Source: Corallium rubrum
Taxonomy: Eukaryota; Cnidaria; Anthozoa; Scleralcyonacea; Coralliidae
Assembly: GCA_964035015.1 (NCBI GenBank)
Contig: CAXIUP010000114.1
Location: 37,501-101,500 of the forward strand
Direction: 5' to 3'
DNA: 64,000 nucleotides
Shown here: positions 27,091 to 53,007 of the stretch, piece after piece
How positions within the stretch are numbered: the stretch's first letter is position 1
Layout of the letters: each line of letters begins with the position of its first letter
Notes under the pieces: model-generated
The model's input: only the letters and a program-made list of their open reading frames with translations
What the model was told of the DNA's origin: nothing
The model's database searches: none
Program-made: the position numbers and the translations under genes

Positions 27091-30000
27091 ACAGTTTTGC
27101 CACCTTCAAAATATTGAAAAACGCTTATCTCGCGATTCTGAGTCGAAAAAAGTTATATTCTCAAATAAGCTCCAAAACGCCAAATTATCGGTAAAAATGA
27201 TGTTTGTGACCTAAAATTAGCAAAACAACACATTTGGAATTATTCCCTCAACCATTCTTATTTGGCAGTTTTGCCACCTTCAGAATGTTGAAAAACTTTT
27301 ATCTCGCGATTCTGCGTCGAAGAACGTTTTTTTCTCAATTAAGTGCCATTTGGCACTAATAATAATATGTATATATAATATGTATAAATATAATATATAC
27401 GTATATATAATAATATGTATATATAAGAATATGGCATTTGCCAAATTATTGGTAACAATGAGGTTTGTGATCTAAAGCTAGCAAAACAACACATTTGGAA
27501 TGATTCCCTCAACTTTTGTGTTTTGCCAGTTTTGCCACCTTCAAAATGTGGAAAAACGCTTATCTCGCGATACTTAGTCGAAAAATGTTTTTTTCTTAAA
27601 TAATCTCAAAATGCCGAATTATCGTTAAAAATGATGTTTATGACCTAAGACTAGCAAAAGTACCCATTTGGAATGATTCCTTCAACTTTTCTATTTTTGC
27701 AGTTTTGCCACCTTCAAAATGTTGAAAGACGCTTATCTCGCCATTCTGAGTCGAAAAAAATTTTTTTTCCCAATAAGGCCCAAATTCCAAATTATCGGTA
27801 AAAATGATGGTTAACTCATTCCTGTCCGGGGGCTTCCCCAGAGGTGAATAAAATCGTCTGGGGTTAGCCAGAATAAAATACTAAAGACCAATTCGGACAA
27901 GAAAGAGTTAAAGAGATAGTCTATAACTCATTCCTGTCCGGGGGCTTCCCCAGAGGTGAATAAAATCGTCTGGCGTTAGCCAGAATAAAATACTAAAGAC
28001 CAATTCGGACAAAAAAGAGTTAATTCTGAAAGAAAGAGTTAAAGGGATAGTCTATAACTCATTCCTGTCCGGGGGCTTCCCCAGAGGTGAATAAAATCGT
28101 CTGGCGTTAGCCAGAATAAAATACTAAAGACCAATTCGGACAAAAAAGAGTTAATTCTGACGTAAAACTAGAAAAACAACACATTTGGAATGATTCCCTC
28201 ATATTTTCTATTTTGGCAGTTTTTCCAGCTTCGAAATGTTGAAAATCGTTTAACTCGCCATTCTGAGTCGAAAAAAGTTTTTTTCTCAAATAAACGCCAA
28301 ATACCAAAATAGAAAAAACTGACGTAAAACTAGTAAAACAACGCATTTGGAATGATTCCCTCACTTTTTTATTTTGGCAGTTTTGCCACCTTCAAAATCT
28401 TGAAAAACGCCTATCTCGCCATTCTGAGTCGAAAAAAGTTTTTCTCTCAAATAATCTCCAAAAGCGAAATTATCGGTAAAAATGATGTTTCTGACGTAAA
28501 ACTTGCAAAAGAACACATTTGGAATGATTCCCTCAACTTTTCTATTTTGGCAGTTGCCACCTTCAAAATGTTGAAAAAGGTTTATCTCGTCATTCTGGGT
28601 CGAAAAAAGTTTCTTTCTCATATAAGCTCCAAATCCCAAATTATCGGCGAAAATGATGTTTGTGACCTAAGGCTAGTTAAACTGCACATTTGGAATGATT
28701 CCCTTAATTTTTCTATTTTGGCAGTTTTGCCACCTTCAAAATGTTGAAAAACGCTTATCTCGCCATTCTGAGTCGAAAAAAGTTTTTTTCCCCATTAAGC
28801 TCCAAATGCCAAATTATCGGTAAAAATGATGTCTGACGTAAAAATAGCAAAACAACACATTTGGAATGATTCCCTCAACTTTTCTATTTTGGCAGTTTTG
28901 CCACCTTCAAAATGTTGAAAAACGTTTATGTCGTCATTATCGGTCGAAAAAAGTTTTTTTCTCAAATAACTGCAAATGGGAAATTATCGGTAAAAATGAT
29001 GTTTCTGACGTAAAACTAGCAAAACAACACATTTGGAATGATTCCCTCAACTTTTCTATTTTGGCAGTTTTGCCATATTTCAAAATGTTGAAAAACGTTT
29101 ATCTCGCGATTCTGCGTCGAAAAACGTTTTTTTCTCAAATAAGCGCCAAATGCCAAACTATCGGAAAAAATGATGTTTCTGATGTAAAACTAGGAAAGCA
29201 ACACATTTGGAATGATTCCCTCAACCTTTCTATTTTGGCAGCTTTGCCACCTTCAAAATGTAGAAAAACGCTTATCTCGCCATTCTGATTCGAAAAAAAT
29301 TTTTTTCCCCATTAAGCTCCAAATGCCAAATTATCGGTAAAAATGATTGTTCGGACGTAAAACTAGCAAAACAACACATTTGGAATGATTCCCTCAACTT
29401 TTCTATTTTGGCAGTATTGCCACCTTCGATATGTTGAAAATCGTTTTTCTCGGCGTCAGAATTCGAAAAAAGTTTTTTTCTCAAATAAGCGCCAAATGTC
29501 GAACTATCGGTAAAAATTATTTTTCTGACCTAAAAATAAGCAAAACAACAAATTTGGAATGATTCCCACAACTTTTCCATTTTGGCAGTTTTGCCACCTT
29601 CAAAATGTTGAAAAACGTTTATCTCGCGATTCTGCGTCGAAAAACGTTTTTTTCTCTAATAAGCGCCAAATGCCAAATGATCGGAAAAAATGATGTTTCA
29701 GATGTAAAACTAGCAAAACAACACATTTGGAATGATTCACTTAACTTTTCTATTTTGGCAGTTTTTCCACCTTCAAAATGCTGAAAAACGTTTATCTCGC
29801 GATTCTGAGTCGAAAAAAAAGGTTTTTTCTCAAATAAGCTCCAAATGCCGAATTATCCGTAAAATGATATTTGTGACATAAAACTAGCAAAACAACACAT
29901 TTGGAATGATTCCCTCAACTTTTCTATTTTGGCAGTATTGCCACCTTCAAAATGTTGAAAAACGCTTATCTCACCATTCTGAGTCGAAAAAGTTCTTTTC

Positions 30001-31855
30001 TGAAATAAGCTCCAAATGCCAATTTTCGGTAAAAATGATATTTCTGACGTAAAACTAGCAAAACAACATATTTGGAATGATTCCCACAACTTTTCTATAT
30101 TCGCGGTTTTGCCACCTTCAAAATGTTGAAAAACGCTTATCTCGCCATTCTGAGTCGAAAAAAGTTTTTCTCTCAAATAATCTCCAAATGCCAAATTATC
30201 GGTAAAAATGATGTTTCTGAGTAAAACTAGAAAACAACAATTTGGAATGATTCCCTCAACTTTTCTATTTTGGCAGTTTTGCCACCTTCAAAATGTTGAA
30301 AAACGTTTATCTCGCCATTCTGAGTCGAAAAACGTTTTTTCTCAAATAAGCGCCAAATGCCAAATTATCGGTAAAATGATGTTTCTGAAGTAGAACTAGG
30401 AAAAAAAAAAAGATTTGGAATGATTCCCTCAACTTTTCTATTTTGGCAGTTTTGCCACCTTTAAAATGTTAAGAAACGTTTATCTCGCGATTCTGCGTCG
30501 AAAAACGTTTTTTTCTCAAATAAGCGACAAATGCCGAATTATCCGTAAAATGATATTTGTGACATAAAACTAGCAAAACAACACATTTGGAATGATTCCC
30601 TCAACTTTTCTATTTTGGCAGTATTGCCACCTTCAAAATGTTGAAAAACGCTTATCTCACCATTCTGAGTCGAAAAAGTTCTTTTCTGAAATAAGCTCCA
30701 AATGCCGAATTATCCGTAAAAATGATATTTCTGACGTAAAACTAGCAAAACAACATATTTGGAATGATTCCCACAACTTTTCTATATTCGCGGTTTTGCC
30801 ACCTTCAAAATGTTGAAAAACGCTTATCTCGCCATTCTGAGTCGAAAAAAGTTTTTCTCTCAAATAATCTCCAAATGCCAAATTATCGGTAAAATGATGT
30901 TTCTGAAGTAGAACTAGGAAAAAAAAAAAGATTTGGAATGATTCCCTCAACTTTTCTATTTTGGCAGTTTTGCCACCTTTAAAATGTTAAGAAACGTTTA
31001 TCTCGCGATTCTGCGTCGAAAAACGTTTTTTTCTCAAATAAGCGACAAATGCCGAATTATTGCTAAAAATGATGATTGTGACCTAAAACTATCAAAACAA
31101 CCCATTTGAAGGATTTTCTCAACTTTTCTATTTTGGCGGTTTTGCCACCTTCAAAATGTTGAAAAACGCTTATCTCGCGATTGTGAGTCGAAAAATGTTT
31201 TTTGATCAAATAAGCTTTAAAATGCCAAATTATCGGTAAATATGATGTTCCTGACCAAAATCTAGCAAAACAACACATTTGGAATGATTCTCTCAACTTT
31301 TCTATTTTGGCAGTTTTGCCACCTTCAAAATGTTGAAAGACGCCTATCTCGCCAATCTTAGTCGAAAAAAGTTTTTTTCTGAATTAAACTCCAAATGCTA
31401 AATTATCGGAAAAAATGATGTTTCTGAGCTAAAACTGGAAAAACAACACATTTGGAATGATTCCCTCACCTTTTCTATTTTGGCAGTTTTGCCACCTTCA
31501 AAATGTTGAAAGACGCCTATCTCGCCAATCTTAGTCGAAAAAAGTTTTTTTCTGAATTAAACTCCAAATGCTAAATTATCGGCGAAAATTATGCTTGTGA
31601 CCTAAAACTAGCAAAACAAGATATGTGGAATGATTCCCACAACTTTTCTATTTTCGCGGTTTTGACACCTTCAAAATGTTGAAAAACGTTCATCTCGTCA
31701 TTCTGGGTCGAAAAAAGTTTTTTTCTCAAATAATCTCCAAATGCCAAATTATCGGTAAAAATGATGTTTCTGACGTAAAACTAGCAAAAGAACACATTTG
31801 CAATGATTCCCTCAACTTTTCTATTTTGGCAGTTTTGCTACCTTCGAAATGTTAA
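27091..31855 (+). repeat. 173-bp satellite, forward block
   Basis: Tandem units of about 173 bp with ACATTTGGAATGATTCCCTC, TTTTGGCAGTTTTGCCACC, CATTCTGAGTCGAAAAAAG and CAAATTATCGGTAAAAATGA in fixed order. Units differ by point changes and small indels. Open frames across it are shadows of the repeat. It is interrupted by a TATG-rich tract (27355-27432) and the MITE trio at 27811-28153. Confidence 0.95.
27811..28153. mobile_element. Three tandem copies of a TTAACTC MITE
   Basis: Each copy of about 100 bp starts TTAACTCATTCCTGTCCG or TAACTCATTCCTG and ends CGGACAA(A/G)AAAGAGTTAA, imperfect inverted ends. Copies lie at 27811-27912, 27923-28023 and 28055-28153, separated by short linkers containing GATAGTCTA. 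Relatives are at 55445-55543, 55567-55655 and, diverged, near 49346-49410. Confidence 0.8.
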
Positions 31856-34410
31856 AAAGGTGGCAAAACTGCCGAAATAGAAAAGTTGAGGGAATCATTC
31901 CAAATGTGTTGTTGTGCTAGTTTGGGGTCACAAACATCATTTTCGCCGATAATTTGGGATTTGGAGCTTATATGAGAAAAAAACTTTTTTCGACTCAGGA
32001 TGGCAAGATAATCCATTTTTAACATTTCGAAGCAGCAAAAACTACAAAAGTAGAAAATTTGAGGGAATCATTCCAAATGCGTTGTTTGGCTTGTTTTACG
32101 TCAAAACCATCATTTTTACCAATAATTTGGTATTTGGAGATTATTTGAGCGAAAAACTTTTTTCGACTCAGAATGGCGAGATGAGAGTTTTTCAACATTT
32201 TAAAGGTGGCAAAACTGCCAAAATAGAAAAGTTGAGGGAATCATTCCAAACGTGTTGTTTGGCTTGTTTTACGTCAGAAACATCATCTTTACCGATAATT
32301 TGGCATTTGGAGCTTATTTGAGAAAAGAACTTTTTTCGACCCAGAATGACGAGATAAACCTTTTTCAACATTTTGAAGGTGGCAACTGCTAAAATAGAAA
32401 AGATGAGGGAATCATTCCAAATGTGTTGTTTTGCTATTTTTACGTGAAAGACATCATTTTTTCCGATAATTTGCTATTTGGCGCTTTTTTGAGAGAAAAA
32501 CTTTTTTCGACTCAGGATAGCAAGATAATCGATTTTTAACATTTCGAAGCAGGAAAAACTACAAAGGTAGAAAATTTGAGGGAATCATCCCAAATCTGTT
32601 GTTTTACCACTTTTACGTCAGAACAATCATTTTACCAATAATTTGGTATTTGGAGATTATTTGAGCGAAAAACTTTTTTCGACTCAGAATGGCGAGATAA
32701 TCGATTTTTAACATTTCGAAGCAGGAAAAACTACAAAAGTAGAAAATTTGAGGGAATCATCCCAAATCTGTTGTTTTACCACTTTTACGTCAGAACAATC
32801 ATTTTACCAATAATTTGGTATTTGGAGATTATTTGAGCGAAAAACTTTTTTCGACTCAGAATGGCGAGATGAGAGTTTTTCAACATTTTGAAGGTGGCAA
32901 AACTGCCAAAATAGAAAAGTTGAGGGAATCATTCCAAACGTGTTGTTTGGCTTGTTTTACGTCAGAAACATCATCTTTACCGATAATTTGGCATTTGGAG
33001 CTTATTTGAGAAAAGAACTTTTTTCGACCCAGAATGACGAGATAAACGTTTTTCAACATTTTGAAGGTGGCAAAGCTGCCGAAATAGAAAAGATGAGGGA
33101 ATCATTCCAAATGTGTTGTTTTGCTATTTTTACGTGAAAGACATCATTTTTTCCGATAATTTGCTATTTGGCGCTTTTTTGAGAAAAAAACTTTTTTCGA
33201 CTCAGGATAGCAAGATAATCGATTTTTAACATTTCGAAGCAGGAAAAACTACAAAGGTAGAAAATTTGAGGGAATCATCCCAAATCTGTTGTTTTACCAC
33301 TTTTACGTCAGAACAATCATTTTACCAATAATTTGGTATTTGGAGATTATTTGAGCGAAAAACTTTTTTCGACTCAGAATGGCGAGATGAGAGTTTTTCA
33401 ACATTTTGAAGGTGGCAAAACTGCCAAAATAGAAAAGTTGAGGGAATCATTCCAAACGTGTTGTTTGGCTTGTTTTACGTCAGAAACATCATCTTTACCG
33501 ATAATTTGGCATTTGGAGCTTATTTGAGAAAAAAACTTTTTTCGACACAGAATGGCGAGATAAGCGTTTTTCAACATTTTGAAGGTGGCAAAGCTGCCGA
33601 AATAGAAAAGTTGAGGGAATCATTTCAAATGTGTTGTTTTGCTAGTTTTACGTCAGAAACTTTATTGTTACCGATAATTTGGCATTTGGAGCTTATTTGA
33701 GAAAAAAACTTTTTTCGACTCAGAATAGCGAGATAAGCGTTTTTCAACATTTTGAAGGTGGCAAAGCTGCCGAAATAGAAAAGTTGAGGGAATCATTTCA
33801 AATGTGTTGTTTTGCTAGTTTTACGTCAGAAACATCATCTTTACCGATAATTTGGCATTTGGAGCTTATTTGAGAAAAAAACTTTTTTCGACACAGAATG
33901 GCGAGATAAGCGTTTTTCAACATTTTGAAGGTGGCAAAGCTGCCGAAATAGAAAAGTTGAGGGAATCATTTCAAATGTGTTGTTTTGCTAGTTTTACGTC
34001 AGAAACTTCATTCTTACCGATAATTTGGCATTTGGAGCTTATTTGAGAGAAAAAACTTTTTTCGACTCACAATGGCGAGATAAGCGTTTTTCAACATTTT
34101 GAAGGTGGCAAAGCTGCCGAAATAGAAAAGTTGAGGGAATCATTCCAAATGTGTTGTTTTGCTAGTTTTACGTCAGAACCATCATTTTTACCGAGTATTT
34201 GGCATTTGGAACATTTTGGGGAAAAAACTTTTTTCGACTCAGAATGGCAAGAGAAGCGTTTTTCAACATTTTGAAGGTGGCAAAACTGCCAAAATAGAAA
34301 AGTTGAGGGAATCATTCCAAATGTGTTCTTTTGCTCGTTTTAGGTCAGTTGATAACCGATAACTTGGCATTTGGAGCTTATTTGAGAAAAAAACTTTTTT
34401 CGACTCAGAA
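31856..34410 (-). repeat. 173-bp satellite, inverted block
   Basis: From 31856 the units run as reverse complement (GTTGAGGGAATCATTCC). The left border is a hairpin: GCAGTTTTGCTACCTT directly faces AAGGTGGCAAAACTGC. The right border is at about 34410, where CGACTCAGAA meets ATTCATTTGG. A 518-bp three-unit block is duplicated within it (starts 32640 and 33160). Confidence 0.92.
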
Positions 34411-35328
34411 ATTCATTTGGAATGATTCCCTCAACTTTTCTATTTTGGCAGTTTTGCCACCTTCAAAATGTTGAAAAACCTTTATCTCGCGATTCTGCGT
34501 CGAAAAACGTTTTTTCTCAAATAAGTGCCAAATGCCAAATTGTCGGTAAAAAATGATGTTTCTGATTCAAAACTAGCAAAACAGCACATTTGGAATGATT
34601 CCCTCAACTTTTCTATTTTGGCAGTTTTGCCACCTTCAAAATGTTGGAAAACGCTTATCTCGCGATTCTGAGTCGAAAACAGTTTTTTTCTCAAATAAGC
34701 CCCAAAATGCCAAATTATCGGTAAATATGATGTTCCTGACCAAAATCTAGCAAAACAACACATTTGGAATGATTCTCTCAACTTTTCTATTTTGGCAGTT
34801 TTGCCCCCTTCAAAATATTGATAAACGCTTATCTCACCATTCGGAGTCGAAAAAAGTTTTTGTCTCAAATAAGCTCCAAATGGCACATTATCGGTAAACA
34901 TGATGTTTTTGACGTAAAACTAGCAAAACAACACATTTGGAATGATTCCCTCAACTTTTTTACTTTGGCAGTTTTGCCTGCTTCCAAATGTTTAAAAACG
35001 TTTATCTCGCGATTCTGCGTCGAAAAAAGTTTTTTTTTCTCAAATAACCGCCAAATGCCAAATTATCGGTAAAATGATGTTTCTGATGTGAAACTAGCAA
35101 AACAACACATTTGGAATGATTCCCTGAACTTTTCTATTTTGGCAGGTTTATGTCGCGATTGTGAGTCGAAAAATTTTTTTTCTCAAATAACCTCCAAATG
35201 CCGAATTATCGGTAAAAATGATGTTTCTGACCTAAAACTAGCATAACAACACATTTGGAATGATTCCGTCAATTTTTCTATTTTGGCAGTTTTGGCCCCT
35301 TCAAAATATTGATAAACGCTTATCTCAC
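34411..35328 (+). repeat. 173-bp satellite, forward block before the transposon
   Basis: Same unit as 27091-31855. It ends at the target site of the 11.6-kb transposon and resumes on the other side at 46979. Confidence 0.93.
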
Positions 35329-35334
35329 CATTCT

Positions 35335-35770
35335 TACGGTGGCCCACAAGTGCAGCGCACAAATATATTTAAAACGCACAAATATATTTAAAACGCACAA
35401 ATATATTTAGAAACGCACAAATATATTTAGAAACGCACAAATATATTTAAAAACGCACAAATATATTTAGAAACGCACAAATATATTTAGAAACGCACAA
35501 ATATATTTAGAAACGCACAAATATATTTAGAAACGCACAAATATATTTAGAAACGTACAAATATATTTAGAAACGCACAAAGATATTTAGAAACGCACAA
35601 ATATATTCAAAACATAAATATTTTCGAAACGCAGAAATAAATGTCGAAACGCAGAAATAAATGTCAAAACGCAGAAATAAATGTCGAAACGCAGAAATAA
35701 ATGTCGAAACACAGAAATAAATGTCGGAACGCAGAAATAAATGTCGAAATACAGAAATATATGTCGAAAC
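35335..35770 (+). repeat. Left terminal inverted repeat with 20-bp tandem units
   Basis: Outer array of AAACGCACAAATATATTTAG units (about 12) and inner array of GAAACGCAGAAATAAATGTC units (about 7), matched in the same order at the right end. The E3 ligase start codon is about 130 bp inward, so the repeat probably also acts as promoter. Confidence 0.93.
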
Positions 35771-35898
35771 ACGATATGAAAGCAAGATAAAGTATTCAGC
35801 CGAGGGACTAAGCGCCCGCTGGCTGCGAAAAGCAAATAAACGCGGGGAAAATACAGAACGTCATTGCTATTTTGTTTATAAAACGATGTCTGGCAGCC

Positions 35899-38107
35899 AT
35901 GTTTTGCTCAAGTTGTGGTACGTGTATGCAAATAAGCTTCAAGTTTTGCCCATCTTGCGGAAAAGGAAAGGTCGAAGATAAAGGCGAGCATAGCAGGAAT
36001 GCAGCATCATCCTCGAATGAGAGTAAAGAGTCGAATGAGAGTAAAGAGTCAAAAAACAGCCGGCCAAATACGTCATTTAAAGAATTTATGAGGAAGAAAA
36101 ATGAAGAGAGGGCCTCGAATTTTAGACCGTCGAAGAAGGCGCGTGTTGCGGACATCGCGAATAAGCAAGAGGTTTCCATAAACATTGGGATTATGGAATT
36201 GAACGAGGAAGCGGTGGGGATCCCCTTAAGAGGTAAAAGCTTGCCACTGAAGATCGTGAAAGAGGTCGACTACGATACCCTATTGGCATCGGCGCTGAAA
36301 AAACGCGGCGACTACGACAAAACGTTCGACTGTGAACGCGCATACAAGCTGGTATATCCAGATGGGCAATCCGCTCAAACCATCCCAGGTTCCTTCGAAC
36401 TTTTTACTCTGGTCAAGTATAAGCAAGGGCTTGGAAAAAGCTACGGCAGGCTAACACTGTACTTGTGCCCAATTTTTCTAACAGTGTAAAGGTGGATGAA
36501 GAGCTACGCAGTGATACTGACAGTGATGGAAGTGTTGGTTTACCCCCTGGGATTAAAGCCGCGAGACCAACAGAAACAATCTTGACCTTCTTGAGACCTA
36601 CAGAAACAATCGTGAGACCAACAGAAACAATCCTGATTAACGACGAAACTGATAACAATAACCCATCACCAACAGGGTATCCAGAACATAACGATGAAGG
36701 CTCATTCTATTCAACTGATTTCCTGTAAGTGCATTTACCGTAATTTCTCTATTAATGGGGCTTATATTTTTCAAACTTGTTTTGAGGGGGGTCTTAATTA
36801 TTTTCTGCTTCCAAAAAGGGGGCTTATTAGAGTGGGGGCTTAAAAGAGTGGGGGACTTAAGAAGGGGGGCTTCTAAAAACCAAGAAATTACGGTATGTAT
36901 GACTCATTTAGCCATGAAGATGGGGGAGGCCTATTTAATTTTTCAAAGTTTCTAAAAACAAACTTTCAGTTGATGGAGTTTATATTTAATTATTTAAACA
37001 CAAAATGCTGAATGTACGGTTATAAGGGGGGCTTAATAGAGGGGGCTTATGATAAGGAGGGCTAAATTGAGGGAGGAGCTTGATAGAGGAAATAAAGGGT
37101 ATACAGTAGAACTTGAGTTTTACGACCACCCCTGTTGCCAGGTAAAAGTGGTCGTAAATGACAGGAGGTCGTACATGGCAAGTAGTGATGTGACGTCATA
37201 GCAGCCATTTTGGCAGCGACGCAGCGCTTCTTTATATAAACATTGTTTCAAGGTTAGGAAAATGGCGATTTATAAAGATTTACAAGGGAAATGGAAAAGC
37301 AAGAACATTTCAAAGAAGTGCAGTCTTGATTTATTAATGTTAATATGGTTATTAAGAGAAAAAGAATTTGACATTTGTGCGTTTAATACACTGAAATATC
37401 ATGGCCTTTATAGAGCGATGTTCTCCATATCAAAATCGTGTCGTACTATCGTTCACTTCAGTTTTTGCGCTGTGTTTTTATTACATTTGATTCAATTTTT
37501 ACGCTGGTTTGGTCTTGTTAAAAGCTCTTGCCTTTATTTACGATCTTCCAGTAGTATTTTTTAGATGTGAACACTGAGTTTTGTCACTTTCCTTTCCAAG
37601 TTAAAAAGCCGTTGTAAAATCGTTGTAAAATAACGTCAACGATCGTCAAGATCAACTTGTCTAAAATTAACAAGTCTTACTCATGGTTTCGAATTGTTCA
37701 GTCATTGTATTAACTCTCAAACATCAACTAAAAAGTATTTAACTCTGACAACAAAAATTCACACAGATTTTCATCAAATAATGCTCAAAAGAGAAGCAAA
37801 CAAGTCTAAAATGCGGTATGAAACCGGAAGTGTTGCACAATTGCCGTATTGTTTTCGCATGTGGTCGCATTCGCGTTTGTTTACTACGAAAAAACGGGCG
37901 TTTCTTTAACGTATTTCGGCAGTTTTATGTTCAGATGGTCGCTCACAGCAGGTAAATATCTTGTTTGGGACTAAAAAGTGGTCGCTGGTCGCGTTAGGCA
38001 GGTGGTCGCACATCGGAGGTACATTTCTATTACAAATCGTCCGTGCCAGAAAAAGTGGTCGTAAACAGCAGGTGGTCGTTAAAAGGGGTGTCGTAAAACT
38101 CAAGTTC

Positions 38108-38151
<44 letters not shown>

Positions 38152-41100
38152 TATATTCAGTACTTCAGTTCCATTCAGGTTAATTATATTAATATTTAGA
38201 CGAGGTAAAATAATAAGAGGGGGTATTGTGGATCAATGGATTAACATGAGACATGTACAGATAACATGGGTTAACCCATTAACACCCGACACTATCTCAG
38301 GAGAGTGCAAAGTCTCTAACATGAAAAGGGCACCTGTGCCCTCTGTGCCCCAAGAGGTGCCCTTTTTCCCAGCTTTGGCCAGCTGTTTTTACATTCCTGG
38401 TAATTGGTAAAGGGCTGTCCTCCCCTAGTTCTAGCATCCATTATTTGTGTTTAATTATTTTTAATATGAACACTTGAATAATGAAACTGATAAAACTAGG
38501 CAGTTGTTGTCTGTTAACATTTTGTATGCATCTGCATTTAGTAAAGAAGCAAAATAGTTCGATATCAATAACATACTTGTTCAAATGAAATACGAAACAT
38601 TTACTCTCCATTTATAATAAATAATGTAAGTTTATAAAACACATGCAATTGATTTATTTTCATTTTTCCATGTAGACCAATTGGCATAAGTGAAAATGAA
38701 GCGATTGAAGAGGCTATCCGGCAAAGTATCGAGCAGCATTCAGCAGATACGGAAGAAGTCCAAGAAGAAAAGACAGAATTGACCGAGGCCGAATTGGTGA
38801 CAAGAGTGAAAGAACATTCTGATAGAGTTGTTTCTGGAAACACAAAGGCAATTGTTGTGAGCAGGTTAAATCTTTGGAAAACAGCGCTTCCCTATTTCAA
38901 AAGAAATGGATTTTTGAAAAATCCTGGTCTTATATGTGTCACCTTCGCTACATTTACCGAAGAAGAGGATGCTGTGGATTTAGGGGGTCCAAGAAGAGAA
39001 TTCTTTCATCTTTTGCTTGTGGCTATCTGTAAAGATAGTGGGATATTGACAAGTACAGTATAAAAATTATATTCTTTATGTTGCTATTTTTATTATTGGA
39101 AATGGCTGAACATTAATAGCACATCTTAATCCTACCCTATTTATTATACCATGCATATAAGTGTCCCCCAGATGTAGGTACATGTGCTTATATCTGGATA
39201 CATTTCCCATTAATGCACAAGCTGCAAGTTATCCTTTTAGCAAGTAAAATTGTCTGGCTTTGACAGAGCTTACAATAAAGGGGGAGCATTGCTGCTTAAT
39301 GGGTTATCATATTTCCTAATTTAAGGCCTTCGAGGGGGGACTTAATTTTACAAATTTCTAAGACCAAATTTTCTGTTATTGAAGTTATTTAGACAGTAAA
39401 TACATGGGGGAGGGATAATGAGGGAGGGGGCATATGTCCATTTTTCACTAGTTGAGGGGGCTTATTAGTTAGGAGGGGGCTTAAATGAGGGAGGGGCTTA
39501 ATATAGGAAAAAAGGTAATATATAAACTCCATCTCAATTCTCTCCTTTTTTGCCCATCTTAAATTAAGGCTCTGGAATACAATTTATAACTCATTCTGTT
39601 ATTTTATTTATCTATTCCAGGCACCTCAGTGGGCTTCATAGCCCGATGCAACATTAAGTGTTTGCAGAACCATGACTACTTGACAGTTGGGCAAATGCTT
39701 GCTACTATGATTGTTCAAGGAGGTGAACAGCCTTCTTTGTTCACCAAGTCTATATGCAATTACATCAGTATGGGCTTAGATGCAAGCAATCCTGGTATTG
39801 AGGAGGTGCCAGACTACACCATAAGAGACAATTTAAAAAGGGTAAAATATAAATTGGTAGATTAATTCATAAATTCAAGCATATATCGATTGCAGCAAAA
39901 TTATACTGTCATGACAGGTGTGGCCAACCATGGTATATTTCCCATACTTGTATGTCAACAGTCGTATTTTCAATGGGTAGCGTCAATTGCATTTCTTGAA
40001 TGTATAAATATTGTTATCTTAACTGAGGTGCCATTTTATTGGCTTACTATATGGGGCCTTTCTGCCTTGAAAATAAATAACATATATGAATATATGATAG
40101 GAATTAAAATCCTGGTCTTTTTCTTAATTTTAGCTATCCGATGCAAAAACAAAAGAAGAATTAGAAGCAGTTTTCAATGAATGTGAATGGAGATTCGAGA
40201 TTGATGGTCTGCCAACAACCATAACCCTTGAGGATAAGGAGAGTTTTGTAATGCAAGTGGCAAAGTACTTTGCAATTATTAAATGCAAGCCAATGCTGGA
40301 CCAGTTAATAGAGGGTCTAAAGTACTATGAGGTACAGTATAAAATTTCTGTTTGCCAAAAGACATCTATCCCTTGTGGACAGGGCTCTCTGGGAAGAAAC
40401 AAGAGGAGCCTGACAAAAAGAGCTCGCCAAAGTGGTAAGGGGCTCTTTTTAGAGCCTCTGGGAATTATACAGAAACTGGGTAGTGGATGGGTCTACTAAC
40501 ATAATTAATGACATTGAGATTATTTGAGAATGAGTTAGCACTGCAGCCCTTGCACAGTGGATAGTTTATACTTTATAGAAGAATATAGTAACAATTTTAT
40601 TACAGTAAATAAAATTATGTTAAACATTTTAATTTCTAAACAAAAATAACATGAAAATGATGAAAAGCAAATTATCAATATTACAAAACAGGAAAAAGTT
40701 AGAGATGTTCATAGACATACTGTACAGTTCAGTGTCAGTGACAATGTGAATTGTGACATAGTGACTACATTGAGCCATTGACAGATTATCCTTATTTACA
40801 ATTTTACATGTTTCTCACTCAGTAACTCTGTAAGACAGTAAGACTGTAACTGCAGTATATACTATAACTTATAACTGCTGTATATATTAGTACGTAACAG
40901 TGTCACTCAGACTACTCAGTGCAGAGTGCTAATTCACATCGATGCAAATGCAATCAGATATTCAGATTATCAGATACAGAATCTTCATCAAATTCATCAC
41001 TACTGTTGCTGCAGGCGCTGCTGGTATCCCTGCCTATTTCATGGGCTTTTCCCTTAAAATGACGATCCACATTGTGTTTCGTCACTTTGTTTGTGCCGTC

Positions 41101-44008
41101 GATAAATATTTTCATCGCCTTTTTTGCGTTTCCTCGACATGTGGGGTGCTGTAAGATTGAAGTTGGATTTCGACTGCAAACTTTGCACCATATCGACACT
41201 ACTGAAGTTGCACCTTCGACTTCTTCGGTTTTGACACCCAAGTTGTCTTCTTTCCCCCACGACTTGAAGTTTAACTTTGACCCCTTTTGAATTTAATGCC
41301 ACCATATATTAACATTCATCATTGACAGATTGACTATTCATATATTATTCAATCGACGCCATTTTTAGATTTTGAGAGCATGGTAACATCCTAGTTCCAG
41401 TACTAATACTCGGCCACAAACTGTCATGCCAGCAATTCTCCTTCTCAAGCACTGATACGCACGTTTTGGGAACGAGATTGCCAGCGATTAAAGAAAACTT
41501 AAAGCTTGCAAAATTGATTGATAAAATCCAAACTTTATAGTGTTTTGTTGTTCACTTCAAGTTCCCACAGTATATTCAATACTACTTGGTAGGTTTTTTT
41601 TGTAAGATATTCTATTTAAGGCGCTTGATTTTTCGAGCTCGCCAACCGTTTTGAGGCGCGTTTTCCAGGCGCGCGGGCGCTAGCGCGCCTTTCCTTGAGA
41701 GCCCTGCTTGTGGATTATAATGACCGGCATTTCACCAAACAACAACTCAGAATGGGTCATTCCAGAAAACATCCACACCTCCCCCACAGGAGGAAATGTG
41801 AAGTTGACCCCCTCCCCCCTTTGGACATCTTAGTACATTTTACTATTATCACAAGTAGATTTACCCTCCTCCCCTCCCCAGATGGCACAAATTTCCTCTG
41901 TGGGGGGAGGTATGGATCTTTTCTGGAATGACCCAATGGCCGTTTATGCACTTTACAAAGTGTTAAGGATCATGATTGTACTTTTTACTTACATTTGTAA
42001 GTTTCTTTATAGGAGTTTATACAAATAGAAGGCATATCATGTCATTGTCTATGCTTTCATATTTCAGGGTTCGAAATAGCAGCCGGCTGCCGGCTCTCGC
42101 CGGCAGTTTTAGGAGCTTGCTGGCAATTTCTAATTTCATTTTTCCAAGATCAGAATTATTGTAATTTGTTTTGATTTCTCTGTATACTGTATGATCGAAA
42201 AGAAACCAGTATTTGGTTTAGAATACATTATTTGGGCCTATGTCCAGAACGTAACTTTGCTGCTTGGGAAACAGCCGGCAAAAATTTTGACCTACAAAAA
42301 CAGCCGACAAAATTAGGCATATTTTCTGAACGTTATTTCGAACCCTGTATTTTGTATTTATTATTATCAACATTAATGTTTCATAATTTATCTTGCGAGA
42401 ACATGTACAAAACAATTGAAAAATGGGAATGGGTCATTCCAGAAAAGATCCATACCTCCCCCACAGAGGAAATCTGTGCCATCTGGGGAGGGGAGGGGGG
42501 TAAATCTACTTCTGATAATAGTAAAATGTACTAGGACGTCCGAAGGGGGGATGGGGTCAACTTCACATTTCCTCTGTGGGGGAGGTGGGGAGGTGTGGAT
42601 GTTTTCTGGAATGACCCAATTCAAAAGGGAACTCAAAATGGGAATTAAAACTTGCTGTGTATGTTTAACTTTCAGGTATTTGACTTGATGTCTGGAAACC
42701 AGGACATGACATATTTCTTATTGCTGAAGAAATCTACTCCTCTCACAGCCAAACAAGTTGTTAGAATTTTGCGTCCAGCATTTTCTCCTCCTGGTAATAA
42801 CAGACGTGTACAAGAGGAAGTTGTCATGACAAAATTTGTCGAGTTTCTTGGTTTGTGTGAAGGTAGGCCTTAAAATGTACACTGTTTGGTATACTTTGAT
42901 ACTGTACTGACCTTATAACCAGTAAATTATTGCTTCATACCATGGGTTTAGCCAGAAGCCCATCCACCTGTCTTTTGGATGGGCATTTTTTAAAGTGGAT
43001 GGGTAAAAATTGATACCAAAACTCCAGTATTTAGTCTTTAGTTCTTTAATACAACTGTACAAGCTTTAGTTTTGCTATGACATTCAACAGTCACTGCACA
43101 TACCTTGACCACAAGATACAAGTTCCTATGTTTTTGTGAAATATTTAGTATTTTAGGACTGAATTTGGTGATATTTCAATCTGCAGAGGGTAGATGTAAA
43201 CCATAACCCTATCAACATGACATCACATGTTAGCATAATTGCATTCTACAACCACTGAGACAAATGCACACATTTTCAGTAAAAAACAGTGTGGGTGACT
43301 AATTGTTAAATATAGACAAAGAAAATGATTTTGCTGTTGTTTGCTCTCCAATTTAGAGTACTTTTGTTTTCCAGAATGCTCAGAATCGCGTTTTCAGAAG
43401 ACCTGGTTACAAATTTTTTCGAGGTGGGTGGCATGCCCCCAGACCTCCCTAGTAGTGCGGGCACTTTTGGACGGGTAGATTACTAATCCTGGCTAAGGCT
43501 TTGCTTCATACTACTTACTGAATATTAGTTAAAAATCAGTAAAAAGGCCAGCATATGATTTTTAAGCCACATGTTCAATGACAATGTACAAAAACTTCAA
43601 AGCATGCCCCGTTCTACAAATATAAGGAACAGGTGGGGTAAGTAATTCATGTACCAAAACCCAAAGTTTATATATGGCATTTTAATTTCCTCTTATTTAG
43701 AAAATGCTCTTCTACAACGCTTGGAGGAAGATGGCCAAGAGCTTACACCGGAGCAAAAGAAATTTATACCAATGATTACTCCAACACACATTCTCATGTT
43801 TTCAACTGGAGCATGTGGAATCCCAGCTATTGGTTTCCATCCGACTCCATCTTGTTGTTTTGTGCATGACGAGAGCAAAGCTATTCCATGTGCGCAAACA
43901 TGCTCAAACATGCTCTATCTGTATGTTAACAAAAAAACAGTGGAAGGAGGTTGCTTAGATTATTTTGTCACTGCTCTTATGAATGGGGGCATTTTTAGCA
44001 AACTTTGA
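35899..44008 (+). CDS. HECT-type E3 ubiquitin ligase with N-terminal zinc ribbon and UIM
   Basis: Six exons: 35899-36724, 38676-39052, 39621-39841, 40134-40331, 42676-42862 and 43701-44008; all borders are GT-AG and phases agree, giving about 705 aa. The N-terminus MFCSSCG...FCPSCG is a zinc ribbon. An acidic/Ser-rich stretch and an unassigned globular segment follow. Exon 2 opens with AIEEAIRQSIEQ, a ubiquitin-interacting motif, and then the HECT domain runs to the end, with VDLGGPRREFFHLL, LTVGQMLATMIVQGG and CAQTCSNMLYL, where the second Cys (43901-43903) is the predicted thioester residue. One base appears missing in the CCC run at 36468-36470, shifting frame within exon 1; this could be a real lesion or a sequencing error. 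HECT ligases attach ubiquitin to substrates. Its place in a transposon suggests an element function, not proven. An in-frame ATG at 35872 is less likely as start. Confidence 0.85.
36750..37100 (+). repeat. G-rich dispersed repeat in intron 1
   Basis: Recurring GGGGGCTTA and AGGGGGGCTT blocks around ATTTTTCAAA. A relative lies at 39310-39510 in intron 2. It carries no coding pattern. Confidence 0.5.
37104..38112. mobile_element. 1-kb non-autonomous DNA transposon in intron 1
   Basis: Left end CAGTAGAACTTGAGTTTTAC, answered at 38085-38112 by GTAAAACTCAAGTTCTACTA. Subterminal GTGGTCG boxes recur near both ends. The CAGT start and TA-rich flank suggest Tigger/Tc1-mariner. A 100-codon open frame inside (37262-37564) resembles nothing I recognise. 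Confidence 0.7.
38110..38150. repeat. TA microsatellite
   Basis: TA tract directly at the right end of the intron 1 transposon. Confidence 0.9.
40954..41285 (-). pseudogene. Zinc-finger exon in antisense orientation inside intron 4
   Basis: The minus strand is open from about 41285 to a stop at 40954. It reads SWGKEDNLGVKTEEVEG, then IWCKVCSRNPTSI, GTNKVTKHNVDRHFKGKAHE and an acidic Ser-rich tail. The WCKVC...GT.KVTKH..DRH.KG.AH pattern is a C2H2-like finger found at the start of several hAT-derived zinc-finger proteins (ZNF862/KIAA1586-like); that link is from memory. No start codon lies in frame upstream, and nothing like a transposase follows, so it is a captured or leftover exon. It lies in the 2.3-kb intron between 40331 and 42676. 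Confidence 0.5.
41753..41935. mobile_element. Palindromic MITE, copy 1, intron 4
   Basis: TGGGTCATTCCAGAAAA at the left, TTTTCTGGAATGACCCA at the right; the inside is also nearly self-complementary (CCTCCCCCACAG and CTGTGGGGGGAGG). Copy 2 is 0.5 kb downstream. Confidence 0.85.
42430..42618. mobile_element. Palindromic MITE, copy 2, intron 4
   Basis: Same ends as 41753-41935, with the interior in the opposite orientation. It lies just before the branch region of exon 5 (42676). Confidence 0.85.
42863..43700. other. Intron 5 of the HECT ligase
   Basis: Contains a poorly conserved inverted pair (TTTAGCCAGAAGCCCATCC near 42950 and GGACGGGTAGATTACTAATC near 43475) that may be a degraded MITE. 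I see nothing else in it. Confidence 0.4.
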
Positions 44009-44124
44009 AGAAACAAATATTACACATTCGTAGAAGTTTTTATAGCTATATATTAAGGACCAAAATAGAGTGGGTATTTTTATAATACAAGTAATAGTTA
44101 CAATTCACCAGAACTACCCTGCCT

Positions 44125-44382
44125 GGGGCCAGTTGTTCAAAGATGGGTTAGTGTTAACCCTGTGTTAAAGTATAACCAACTGTTTTCGTTTGTGTATTTC
44201 TACCTTTCTGGATGTCTGTTTATTTCAAAACTTTAAAAAGGAATTTCAGTATATGCAGAGATTTGTGTAAATATACATGTATTTCAAAGTTAACATCCCC
44301 ACATGGTCTTGGTAATAAAGTTAGCTTTAACGTTTTGTGTTAACCTAGATTTAGCTAACCCGCTTTTGAACAACTGGCCCCT
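44125..44382. mobile_element. MITE between the two transposon genes
   Basis: GGGGCCAGTTGTTCAAA at the left end and TTTTGAACAACTGGCCCC at the right, with GGGTTAG/CTAACCC continuing the inverted match. It lies just after the HECT ligase stop. Confidence 0.85.
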
Positions 44383-44552
44383 GGTTATTAAAAGAAGGCT
44401 ATGAGTAAAAGTAACAAGAAAAGGGTAATGCTTTGAGGTCTGTTCAGATAAGTCCAGCTTGTGACTTAAGTAAAACAAATTATATCTGTTTAAAGGACTG
44501 TTCTCATCCCACTTATGGGGGAAAATACATTAAAACAAGCAAACATAGTAAC

Positions 44553-44959
44553 TAGGGCTGCTCCCATCAGTTCATTTTCATAATCGATTAATCGTTGTCA
44601 ACAATCGATTAATCAATATTAATCGTATTGAATAGATTAGATTGAATAGATGTCCACTGTTACTAAATTCTTCAAATTTAAAAGTATCTTCAGTTTCAAA
44701 GTACCAGTTAACTTCGCACGCAGTGAGTAAATTTCACCTACAATATTTTGACCTCTGTTCTTATGTAAACAATAATTTGCCTATCTTGAATTGGACGGCT
44801 AATAGAGCACGAGTACTAGTGCTGCTTTTGTCGCTAGTTTTTTAATTTCAGAAAGAAACTCATTCCCAGCATCATGATGTGCACAATCCGATTACTGTTA
44901 AGAATAATCGATTGTGGAAAAAAACGGGAAAAATAATCGATTAATTGGGAGCAGCTCTA
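44553..44959. mobile_element. hAT-like MITE with an imperfect 8-bp duplication
   Basis: TAGGGCTGCTCCCA at the left end is answered by TTGGGAGCAGCTCTA. Flanks are ATAGTAAC and GTAGTAAC (7 of 8 bases equal). The inside is rich in AATCGATTAAT. Confidence 0.75.
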
Positions 44960-45233
44960 GTAGTAACCTCAAAATATGACACTTTTTGGTTCAATTTTAA
45001 TGCAAAATTACTGAATAAAAGTAGGGTATCTAACTTGGGGAGTGTTCCAGTTAGCCGGTCTATGTGTATACATGTAGGCCCATATGCAACCAGAAGTTCA
45101 GAAATATCAACAACATTAAGTTTTGATTGTATAATTTCTGTTAATGTTATTTGTTTTGTAAAAATTATAGCATTTATAAATTATTAAATTGCATTATTTT
45201 ATGCTGATAAAATATCTTACTCATGCAGTTTTT

Positions 45234-46483
45234 TTACCTGGAAACTGCTATAGTAAGCAATTGGTCATACAATTCAGTTGCATCTCTCCAGTTTGTTGGC
45301 AATGTGGCTCTTAATTCATTCTCATAAATATATTTGAAATATTCTTGATAATCATTGTCATCATCTTCCTGAGCATCTTCACAATGTTGGGACATGTCTT
45401 CCATTTGCACTTCTGTTACTGGTTTGATGTAATTCATCGCTCCAACACTCTCAGGTAAATGGTAAAGTACATCTGGTTTGCCAGCAATGGTGTCATGCCT
45501 GGACCGACGAATGTAATGGCTATTCCAGTGCTCCTTGATGTCATCAAGTTCTTTTTCAAAAGATTTGAAAAACAAAACCACAAACATTCCATGTGCAACG
45601 GATTTGCGGTATTCAAAACATCTCTGTCGATCATGTCTTTAAAGAAATTCATCCACCAATTTGTGCGACTTTTTCTCAAATAGGACCACCATGACTCGAT
45701 CCTCTGATTAGCTGGTGAAGCCCCATACTTATGTGCCTTGACACCAGCATGATCATCATCTCCATCACAACGGAAATAGCACTGCATTCCCGCCACAATT
45801 ACATTTTCAGTTCCATTGTCTGACCTGAGCATGGTTGGACAACCTCCTTCTTCAACGATGGTATTCAGAAAAAACTTGGCAATAACAGCTGGGTTATTGT
45901 TTGTCCTGGCTACTTCCAGCCATATAATTCGACGGCTGAAACCGTCTATACAACCGTGAACTGGAAAGCCGTAAGGCTTAAGTTTATCGTAACCGTCCAT
46001 GTGCCAAACATGGTTTGGGCCAGGATTTCTGTACTGCCTTCGACGCAAACACTTCGCTCTTCTTACTTCACAGCCTTCAGGGTCGAGTTCTTTGAGGGTA
46101 TTTTGAACCACGTTCCTTGGGACTTGCATACCCTCAAGACGAAGTGTATGCCATACGGAACGATAACCTCCAGAACAACCAGGTCCATCTATTTCTTCTT
46201 GAATTCGATTACGAACATTATTTATGTCATACGCGACGTTTTTTCTTTTTAAGCCCATATCAGAGAGGCGCTTTTTCAGTGTTCGAAGGGAAAACGTAAT
46301 GTTGTGTTTTGTTTGTAAAAACAATCTTATCTCTTCATACGTAAATCCGTTATTAAAATAATGACGGATTAAATCTTCTTCTGCTTCTTCCTCAAAAGGT
46401 AAGTCAGTAGCACTACCACAAAATACACAAAATCTACACAAACGTTCAAGTTGTCCTCCGCAGTTCGTACAAAACATCGCCAT
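45234..46483 (-). CDS. DDE integrase (transposase) with N-terminal zinc ribbon
   Basis: A single-exon gene of about 416 aa from the ATG at 46483 (a second ATG is at 46477). Order: zinc ribbon MFCTNCG...FCVFCG; a helix-turn-helix-like part (FTYEEIRLFLQTKHNITFSL...LKKRLSDMGLKRK); and an rve catalytic core with GPNHVWHMDGYDKLKPYGF and CIDGFSRRIIW (first Asp), MLRSDNGTEN (second Asp) and SPANQRIESWW (Glu), a DD40E spacing. An acidic C-terminal part follows. One base appears missing in the five-T run at 45552-45556 (plus strand), so the last third is in another frame. Upstream codons to 46585 come from the terminal repeat and are probably untranslated. It should cut and join the ends of the 35335-46972 element. 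It converges on the HECT ligase, the two stops being 1.2 kb apart. Confidence 0.85.
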
Positions 46484-46516
46484 TTGCAACCATGGCTTCC
46501 TCACAAGCGTATTTTC

Positions 46517-46972
46517 TTTCGACATATATTTCTGTATTCCGACATTTATTTCTGCGTTCCGACATTTATTTCTGTGTTTCGACATTTATTTCTGCGTTTC
46601 GACATTTATTTCTGCGTTTCGACATTTATTTCTGCGTTTCGAAAATATTTATGTTTTGAATATATTTGTGCGTTTCTAAATATCTTTGTGCGTTTCTAAA
46701 TATATTTGTACGTTTCTAAATATATTTGTGCGTTTCTAAATATATTTGTGCGTTTCTAAATATATTTGTGTGTTTCTAAATATATTTGTGCGTTTCTAAA
46801 TATATTTGTGCGTTTCTAAATATATTTGTGCGTTTCTAAATATATTTGTGCGTTTTTAAATACATTTGTGCGTTTCTAAATATATTTGTGCGTTTTTAAA
46901 TATATTTGTGCGTTCCTAAATATATTTGTGCGTTTTAAACATATTTGTGCGCTGCACTTGTGGGCCACCGTA
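46517..46972 (-). repeat. Right terminal inverted repeat with 20-bp tandem units
   Basis: Reverse complement of 35335-35770 with the same order of two arrays and slightly different unit numbers. The integrase ATG is 35 bp inward, so this arm is probably its promoter and 5' leader. Confidence 0.93.
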
Positions 46973-46978
46973 CATTCT

Positions 46979-48812
46979 GAGTCGAAAACAGTTTTTTTCT
47001 CAAATAAGCCCCAAATACCAAATTATTGGGAAAAATGATGTTTCTGACCAAAATCTAGCGAAACAACACATTTGGAATGATTCTCTCAACTTTTCTATTT
47101 TGGCAGTTTTGCCCCCTTCAAAATATTGATAAACGCTTATCTCACCATTCTGAGTCGAAAAAAGTTTCTTTCTCAAATAAGCTCCAAATGGCACATTATC
47201 GGTAAAAATGATGTTTTTGACGTAAAACTAGCAAAACAACACATTTGGAATGATTTCCTCAACATTTTTTATTTTGGCAGTTTTGCCAGCTTCAAAATGT
47301 TGAAAAACGTTTATCTCGCGATTCTGCGTCGAAAAAAGTTTTTTTTTCTCAAATAACCGCCAAATGCCAAATTATCGATAAAATGATGTTTCTGATGTGA
47401 AACTAGCAAAACAACACATTTGGAATGATTCCCTGAACTTTTCTATTTTGGCAGTTTTGCCCCCTTCAAAATGTTGAAAAACGTTTATCTCGCGATTCTG
47501 AGTCGAAAAATATTTTTTCTCAAATAACCTCCAAATGCCGAATTATCGGTAAAAATGATGTTTCTGACCAAAATCTAGCGAAACAACACATTTGGAATGA
47601 TTCCGTCAATTTTTCTATTTTGGCAGTTTTGGCCCCTTCAAAATATTGATAAACGCTTATCTCACCATTCTGAGTCGAAAACAGTTTTTTTCTCAAATAA
47701 GCCCCAAATGCCAAATTATCGGGAAAAATGATGTTTCTGACCAAAATCTAGCGAAACAACACATTTGGAATGATTCTCTCGACTTTTCTATTTTGGCAGT
47801 TTTGCCCCCTTCAAAATATTGATAAACGCTTATCTCACCATTCTGAGTCGAAAAAAGTTTTTTTCTCAAATAAGCTCCAAATGGCACATTATCGGTAAAA
47901 ATGATGTTTTTGACGTAAAACTAGCAAAACAACACATTTGGAATGATTTCCTCAACTTTTTTATTTTGGCAGTTTTGCCAGCTTCAAAATGTTGAAAAAC
48001 GTTTATCTCGCGATTCTGCGTCGAAAAAAGTTTTTTTTTCTCAAATAACCGCCAAATGCCAAATTATCGGTAAAATGATGTTTCTGATGTGAAACTAGCA
48101 AAACAACACATTTGGAATGATTCCCTGAACTTTTCTATTTTGGCAGTTTTGCCCCCTTCAAAATGTTGAAAAACGTTTATCTCGCGATTCTGAGTCGAAA
48201 AATATTTTTTCTCAAATAACCTCCAAATGCCGAATTATCGGTAAAAATGATGTTTCTGACCTAAAACTAGCATAACAACACATTTGGAATGATTCCGTCA
48301 ATTTTTCTATTTTGGCAGTTTTGGCACATTCGAAATGTTGAGAAACGTTTATCTCGGCATTCTGAGTCGAAAAAAGTTTTTTTCTCAAATAACCTCCAAA
48401 TGCCGAATTATCGGTAAAAGATGATGTTTCTGACCAAAATCTAGCAAAACAACATATTTGGAATGATTCCCTCAGCTTTTCTATTTTGGCAGTTTTGCCA
48501 CCTTCAAAATGTTGATAAACGCTTATCTCGCCATTCTGAGTCGAAAAAAGTTTTTTTCTCAAATAAGCTCCAAAGGCCAAATTATCGGTAAAAGTGTTCT
48601 TTCTGACATAAAAATAGCAAAACAACACATTTAGAATGATTCCCTCAACTTTTCTATTTTGGCGGTTTTGCCACCTTCAAAATTTTGGAAAACGCTTATG
48701 TCGCCATTCTGAGTCGAAAACAGTTTTTCTCTCAAATAATCCCCAAATGCCAAATTTTCGGTAAAAATGATGTTTCTGACGTAAAACTAGCAACACAACA
48801 CATTTGAAAAGT
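46979..48812 (+). repeat. 173-bp satellite, right of the transposon
   Basis: Continues the forward block cut at 35328. A duplicated stretch of about 0.69 kb is visible (47000-47640 against 47690-48330). The array ends at ACAACACATTTG near 48812. Confidence 0.93.
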
Positions 48813-51385: not shown

Positions 51386-51883
51386 GAGCGTTGACAATTA
51401 AAATGTTAAGTGTTAAAATGTTAAGTGAAATCATCTGGCACAATGGTGTGGAATGTCATATAAAAATTAATGAACAAAGACTTGTATAAATACACTGTCT
51501 GCCCCTCGAAATGTCGCTAAGCCTTTTGTGGCCTTGATATATACTTCCAGCAACAAATAGAGTTGTGTTTGATATAATAGTATAGTAGATATAATAGTAT
51601 ACACTTATTTCTCTTTAATAAATCAATATATTCCAGCGCCAAACTTACTAAGAAACGAGCGCATAATTTAATAATGCCTGCCGCTGATCGGTAGACATTG
51701 CGTATACCGAAGATCATCGCCCACGAAATCCTAAATCGAGTTTGTGAACGCATATAAATTCAGCCCAGACCTCGTCAAGATTAGTGAGCTGCTCGCCTTA
51801 CGGCTCGCAGCAATTACTCTTTACAGTACAGACCAACGGATGGAAAACATAAAAATTCTATTCGTGCCCAAATATTCAATTTA

Positions 51884-51946
51884 TGCCTTTCCATCGTGTC
51901 TTTGACTATTAATATGTGCACTGCATTACCTGAGCTCTGTTTACTG
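51884..51946 (+). repeat. 62-bp direct repeat, copy 2
   Basis: Second copy of 50598-50660. It ends exactly where the microsatellite tract begins. Confidence 0.85.
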
Positions 51947-51956
51947 GGTATATATG

Positions 51957-52920
<964 letters not shown>

Positions 52921-53007
52921 ATACATGCATACGTATTACGTATTACGTATTATATATATATATTTTCACAAACATATTATAAGCACTCTTAAATAAAGAG
53001 ATCCTGC

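Follow-up and report, generated by a model that had tools for sequence, protein, structure and literature searches.

A coral DNA transposon that carries a HECT ubiquitin ligase gene facing its transposase gene

In the available part of its description, the IS3EU/GingerRoot superfamily of DNA transposons has TA..TA ends, usually 6-bp target site duplications, and a DDE transposase that is related to those of IS3 and IS481 and is without the retroviral HHCC motif (PMC10045372). The TET-bearing IS3EU elements of fungi, as far as the accessible text describes them, have TAYGG..CCRTA ends, 6-bp duplications, and an alpha-kinase gene opposite to the transposase gene, with a TET/JBP gene between the two, and the author proposes that the TET/JBP dioxygenases help these elements to escape methylation-based silencing (PMC12730594). 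Styx of Zymoseptoria also has an IS3EU-type transposase, and the accessible part of that report models a two-protein ancestor and proposes the co-option of two coding sequences into an IS3EU element (PMC10853768). Here, we describe an element of 11,638 bp, at positions 35335 to 46972 of a 64,000-nucleotide stretch of Corallium rubrum DNA (contig CAXIUP010000114.1; the whole stretch is called the window below, and its positions are counted from its first letter), that carries a DDE transposase gene and a HECT ubiquitin ligase gene. The same architecture is repeated in other families and at other sites in the genome, and the catalytic cysteine of the HECT domain is retained. On balance, we favor the reading that this is an IS3EU/GingerRoot-type two-gene transposon, one core gene of which encodes the rva_4 (DDE) transposase and the other a HECT E3 ligase dedicated to the element, which would function as proposed below.

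The window element is a full-length cut-and-paste DNA transposon. It is flanked on each side by the hexamer CATTCT, its termini are TACGG..CCGTA, and the identical run at the two ends is 32 bases long and starts TACGGTGGCCCACAAG. The terminal inverted repeats are ~440 bp long, with arms (35391 to 35749 and 46517 to 46875) that are 97% complementary across 359 nt, and each arm consists of ~21 tandem 20-bp units. The element lies in a 173-bp satellite array, and the empty site can be restored: once joined, the flanks match adjacent satellite units straight through the junction, at best with 97.5% identity over 320 nt (the join retained one element base). A first-pass annotation of this DNA had called the boundaries exact, and the duplication, the identical termini, and the restorable empty site bear this out, while the length of 20 bases that it gave for the termini has to be replaced by 32. 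The satellite array itself spans window positions 27092 to 35334 and 46973 to 48809, and its units at ~31.86 to 34.39 kb are inverted with respect to those on either side.

The two genes begin beside opposite ends of the element and converge, with the integrase gene on the minus strand starting from the right end and the HECT gene on the plus strand starting from the left end. The start codons of their zinc ribbons are at distances of 565 and 496 bases from the element ends, in agreement with the earlier statement that each gene begins next to one terminal repeat. The DDE integrase that had been called from the letters was identified by Pfam as a PF24764 rva_4 domain (E value, 5.6e-30), and the joined translations of the HECT exons, the ends of which were read by eye, matched the HECT domain PF00632 with 38 bits (cut-off, 23.9; E value, 1.9e-9). 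In order, the HECT protein has a CxxC..CxxC zinc ribbon, a conserved domain of ~100 residues, a UIM-like helix, and the HECT domain. The UIM-like helix is a by-eye reading of EAIEEAIRQSIEQHS, and Pfam reported no UIM in the window HECT protein.

Related elements and their superfamily

Copies were sought in the same 474-Mb assembly (312 contigs) using DNA of the right repeat. The family of the window element (family 1) has a second, independently inserted copy in C13, which is 11,670 bp long with 0.92% mismatches, has an ATTAAC duplication and flanks unrelated to those in the window, and contains an unbroken integrase open reading frame (ORF) of 450 amino acids (aa). In family 2, whose transposase is 58% identical to that of the window, the two elements C1 (7,837 bp; AAGAGC duplication) and C39 (7,879 bp; AAAGAC) are 99.3% alike, and the pair is intact in C1, with open frames for a 417-aa transposase and for a 711-aa HECT protein whose five exons were joined by eye. 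The element C23 has the transposase-HECT pair with an insertion of ~3.1 kb, and C46, a derivative shortened to 2,937 bp by internal deletion, retains the transposase and part of the N-terminal exon of the partner and has unmatched flanking hexamers. Four loci of further multi-copy families (L034 to L037) were picked before any genome-wide partner result and read for 8 kb each, and in all four, the HECT gene is on the opposite strand downstream of the transposase. The L034 element has its ends at 353 and 7573, with a GTTTTA duplication; L035, L036, and L037 each have one TACGG end within the DNA read and the other end beyond it; and the L036 HECT gene is a single intronless frame of 730 aa. A 100-bp element (C8 51331558 to 51331657) consists solely of two family-1 ends with a GAAAAC duplication and is a tiny non-autonomous derivative.

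Nine of the 10 integrase-bearing elements read (window, C13, C1, C39, C23, C46, and L034 to L037, in six families) carry HECT, the exception being C46. This agrees with the first-pass reading of both genes as core genes, and the HECT gene does not sit at a fixed host locus, as the family-1 copies have unrelated flanks and duplications of their own and the duplications of C1 and C39 differ. Three loci outside this count (C127, C235, and C209) have HECT pieces beside one end, and a transposase was not detected in the DNA retrieved for them.

To measure how regularly the genes occur together, we scored 107 transposase loci, the best of 1330 candidates. The N-terminal exon of the partner gene was convergent with the transposase within 15 kb at 74 of these loci, compared to a mean of 0.14 and a maximum of 2 in 200 random coordinate shifts, a control that is somewhat lowered because a shift can carry a coordinate past the end of a short contig, and to 0.25 expected under uniform placing. 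With all partner queries combined, any piece of the partner gene was convergent within 15 kb at 81 of the 107 loci, and HECT itself was present at 48, including loci found by eye. The orientation was convergent in 172 of 186 piece-pairs, which include overlapping pieces from four queries. Since many related elements in the genome carry the same facing pair, these data suggest that the ligase is part of the basic equipment of the transposon. Genome-wide, there are 131 PF00632 matches, including intronless frames of ~455 to 725 aa, and HECT genes seem expanded beyond the elements described here, since the PF00632 query found only 11 transposase-HECT pairs within 30 kb.

The ends, the duplication length, and the integrase fit the IS3EU/GingerRoot superfamily. 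TACGG..CCGTA is found at both ends of the window element, C13, C1, C39, C46, L034, and the 100-bp element, and the duplication is 6 bp in six of the seven copies with both ends read (the hexamers given above; C46 is unmatched). The rva_4 domain was found in the window and in four sampled families, and the transposase N terminus, by eye, is a CxxC zinc ribbon or has none. Ginger1 and Ginger2 elements have an HHCC-type integrase N terminus and 4-bp duplications, and they are not matched here, where the duplications are 6 bp and no HHCC motif was seen by eye in the transposase N terminus. The element shares its ends, duplication, and transposase type with IS3EU/GingerRoot, the available text on which never mentions HECT or ubiquitin (PMC10045372). 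Its ends, its duplications, and the presence of an opposed second enzyme gene are also those of the TET-bearing fungal elements, but there the second enzyme is an alpha-kinase and here it is a HECT ligase, and the accessible text again has no mention of HECT or ubiquitin (PMC12730594). The transposase type and the idea of a two-protein element are shared with Styx, while the other genes there are of GATA, CCHC, and DUF3577 types, and ubiquitin does not occur in the part of the report available (PMC10853768). By analogy, members of the superfamily may commonly carry an enzyme that modifies proteins and faces the transposase, with HECT as the version found here. No paper in the literature searched brought IS3EU and HECT together, and the gene may be recorded in Repbase or elsewhere; two papers with HECT and transposon terms (PMC4255032 and PMC12062965) were, in their available parts, not relevant here.

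Domains, constraint, and descent of the ligase

The HECT domain scored above the Pfam cut-off in the window, in the matched octocoral protein P0001, and in L035 and L036; the L034 HECT domain was missed by Pfam and came to light only when the protein was compared with L036 (22% identity; E value, 3e-10). A family profile matched TOM1 (E value, 1e-15), HUWE1 (1.3e-14), and AREL1 (2.4e-14), and it aligned with yeast TOM1 from the N-lobe to the C-lobe, with the C-lobe cysteine in register. This catalytic cysteine is kept in all six families read (TCSNM, STCDLM, SACGRT, STCSLV, STCSNT, and STCDVV; the count leaves out C127, C209, and C235), the transposases of which are 47 to 60% identical.

In comparisons with host HECT ligases, a fish G2E3-like protein matches 63% of the query at 42% identity, and the matches from fish and mussel have the UIM-like helix and the HECT domain behind other N termini. 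The N-terminal domain is present in four of 10 matches (P0001, which is without the ribbon, P0008, P0129, and P0130) and in the genome copies, and P0008, P0129, and P0130 have the zinc ribbon and the middle domain in common. The closest full-length relative is LOC114528309 of the octocoral Dendronephthya gigantea (matching 94% of the query at 45% identity), and the nearest named relatives of the transposase are also from corals. The P0129 frame starts MSKHRNNCRN and the window transposase frame starts MSKHRNKCRN, with the window residues encoded by the terminal repeat; this likeness suggests, without proving, that the same layout exists in another genome. Three scans of viral contigs (with the window transposase, P0001, and a HECT alignment) found no relatives. 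The protein P0004 of the fish Merluccius polli, annotated as ZMYM1, has a HECT domain split by a PF14291 segment, as if an element had inserted into a HECT gene.

Predicted structures had a mean predicted local distance difference test (pLDDT) score of 50 for P0001 and 37 for P0008, and their usable parts were the N-terminal domain of P0001 (~70 to 80) and the HECT-like matches. In P0001, the N-terminal domain of ~100 residues is predicted to fold as b-b-a-b-b, and we tentatively regard it as PB1/ubiquitin-like from a Foldseek match to the PB1 domain of Cdc24 (rank 40; E value, 0.084; probability, 0.98). Between this domain and HECT, modules below the cut-off were found, which are CUE-like in L036 (E value, 0.014) and P0008 (0.023) and UBZ-like in L037 (0.0083), in the same position as the UIM-like helix, read by eye, in the window. 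This variation of the module by family would fit a protein that finds ubiquitylated targets in several ways. A similar C-x2-C..C-x2-C ribbon starts both proteins in three of the five families with both starts read; the partner has it in all five families in which its start was read, and the transposase is without it in L034, L036, and L037 (three of six families). In 12 aligned transposases, D163, D222, and E263 (P0009 numbering) are invariant, and by our own assignment they are the putative catalytic residues.

In the exon that encodes the UIM-like helix and the start of the N-lobe, the comparison of the window with C127 gave a nonsynonymous divergence (dN) of 0.175, a synonymous divergence (dS) of 1.54, and a ratio (omega) of 0.11 over 126 codons, with dS near saturation. 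HECT exon 2 thus appears to be under purifying selection, a reading from one exon with near-saturated dS. Between the window and C13, the HECT gene has no changes in 364 codons and one replacement in 140 codons of exon 1, and the transposase has four silent changes and one replacement in 306 codons; both comparisons have too few changes for omega. A 767-aa intronless version of the HECT gene is open in four near-identical copies at four sites, and two more copies of it are cut or have a stop.

Several observations weigh against the ligase being a core gene. Both frames of the window copy are broken, once in HECT exon 1 and once in the integrase, which we therefore read as two overlapping ORFs (45434 to 46585 and 45234 to 45638), so that the complete six-exon ligase with a UIM of the first-pass annotation stands for its six exons and its HECT domain but not for its completeness, the UIM being a by-eye call. 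The HECT gene of C13 has breaks of its own in exons 1 and 4, exon 1 of C39 is broken by a one-base gap, and the L034 ligase is without the N-lobe GGxxREF motif. Selection is also less clear in other comparisons: the dN/dS comparison that had been suggested as a check gave the low ratio for one HECT exon, whereas C209 and C235 gave an omega of 0.70 (12 changes, with one stop in C209) and the remaining exon pairs were saturated and unusable. The comparison of ligase with integrase, made on identities, gave no signal of joint descent, as there is no correlation between transposase identities and partner identities in six families (r, −0.06; exact Mantel P, 0.56); joint descent is therefore undemonstrated, and the families may be too diverged for it. 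The scored loci lean to relatives of the window transposase because they are the best 107 of 1330, and the shift control is lowered as described above. An exon-by-exon search found no partner piece within 15 kb at 26 of the 107 loci; the first query missed C8:48.4M and C23, so some of these partners were probably missed, and true absence is possible for others. Finally, one query detected no N-terminal exon within 12 kb upstream for 73 of 118 HECT matches.

Possible roles of the ligase and alternative explanations

In the mechanism that we propose, the ligase would be expressed from the element's own end, the zinc ribbon and PB1-like domain at its N terminus would bring it to the element ends or to the transposase, and it would then ubiquitylate a protein bound there, making transposition productive. 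The likeliest substrates, which we name tentatively, are host silencing or chromatin proteins; the transposase complex after strand transfer is a weaker candidate, and free transposase, as a form of dosage control, is an improbable one. The effects on host repair, silencing, or transposase turnover raised in the first-pass annotation are likewise inferred. A more speculative extension, which we hold with less than even confidence, is that animal IS3EU elements are obligate two-protein transposons that require an element-encoded HECT ligase tethered to their ends, with ubiquitylation built into transposition. Such an obligate ligase would be the counterpart of the alpha-kinase that faces the transposase in fungal IS3EU, and by this analogy the coupling of a transposase to an enzyme that modifies proteins would extend to the superfamily as a whole. 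Should the ligase be a core gene, DNA transposons of a large group bring their own ubiquitin ligase and would offer a natural system for studying ubiquitin control of transposition, end repair, and silencing. This would also partly explain the multi-copy HECT genes, which would otherwise be annotated as host genes, and would make the elements a possible origin of ligases in hosts.

One alternative, that the window pair is an artefact of a single locus, made when a host HECT gene was recently inserted or when two mobile elements became nested, has the repetitive surroundings of the element and the other repeats in its introns in its favor, but it is refuted by further copies of this pair, inserted independently elsewhere and belonging also to other families, and by 81 of the 107 scored loci, and we give it practically no weight. 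It is also improbable that the HECT gene is passive cargo, captured once from the host by an ancestral IS3EU element and carried without aiding transposition. Transposons do pick up host genes, and the authors of Styx, in the accessible part of their report, propose the co-option of two coding sequences into an IS3EU element (PMC10853768); moreover, HECT genes are abundant in this genome (the 131 Pfam matches), and decayed copies exist. Against this, the layout is constant across families with 47 to 60% transposase identity, the catalytic cysteine is present in six of six families, at least two families (C1 and L036) have a partner gene whose frame is open throughout, and omega is 0.11 in one exon. 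A useless gene would be expected to be lost often by internal deletion, and such a loss was seen once (C46) among the 10 elements.

Two further alternatives give the ligase a more specific task. It may be an anti-silencing effector, with a ubiquitin-binding module that recognizes ubiquitylated chromatin and a HECT domain that clears the element of host silencing proteins. Ubiquitin-binding-like modules of varied types (UIM-like, CUE-like, and UBZ-like) recur in the ligases, and the TET/JBP dioxygenases of fungal IS3EU are, in the available text, proposed to evade methylation-based silencing (PMC12730594). We regard this as somewhat unlikely, since the modules are below the Pfam cut-off or were read by eye. 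The strand-transfer complexes of integrase-type DDE enzymes are very stable, and ClpX dismantles that of phage Mu. The ligase might, by analogy, act on the transposase, either dismantling a stable strand-transfer complex or limiting the transposase dose, and the zinc ribbon shared by both proteins in three of five families could bring them to the same ends; the absence of the ribbon from the transposases of L034, L036, and L037 counts against this explanation, which we consider unlikely.

Coordinates and neighboring sequence

Features of the window element (window positions; exon ends and assignments as noted)
Feature	Position	Strand	Basis
Target site duplication CATTCT, left	35329..35334	.	
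Left terminal inverted repeat: TACGGTGGCCCACAAG.. end and ~21 tandem 20-bp units (35356-35770)	35335..35770	+	
HECT exon 1: N-terminal zinc ribbon (MFCSSCG..FCPSCG), PB1/ubiquitin-like domain (tentative), linker; one frame break	35899..36724	+	End by eye: GT donor and homologues P0129, P0130
HECT exon 2: UIM-like helix, start of HECT N-lobe (..DLGGPRREFF..)	38676..39052	+	Ends by eye
HECT exon 3, N-lobe	39621..39841	+	Ends by eye
HECT exon 4	40134..40331	+	Ends by eye
HECT exon 5	42676..42862	+	Ends by eye
HECT exon 6: C-lobe, catalytic-Cys motif IPCAQTCSNM, stop codon	43701..44008	+	Cys: family profile aligned with TOM1
DDE integrase/transposase (PF24764 rva_4), N-terminal zinc ribbon MFCTNCG; two overlapping ORFs	45234..46585	-	
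Right terminal inverted repeat, ~21 tandem 20-bp units	46517..46972	-	
Target site duplication CATTCT, right	46973..46978	.	

A tiny intron at the break in HECT exon 1 was considered and dropped, as P0129, P0130, and C13 are continuous there. Intron 4 of the HECT gene contains a 117-nt inverted repeat (41790 to 41906 and 42458 to 42574) that is 94% complementary with a 551-nt spacer and is possibly a nested non-autonomous element. Outside the element, a simple-repeat tract at window positions 51788 to 52996 is open in several frames on both strands and would mislead ORF callers, and a 199-aa open frame on the minus strand (59077 to 59676) resembles, by eye, part of a protein kinase (HCDIKSDNIVI..).

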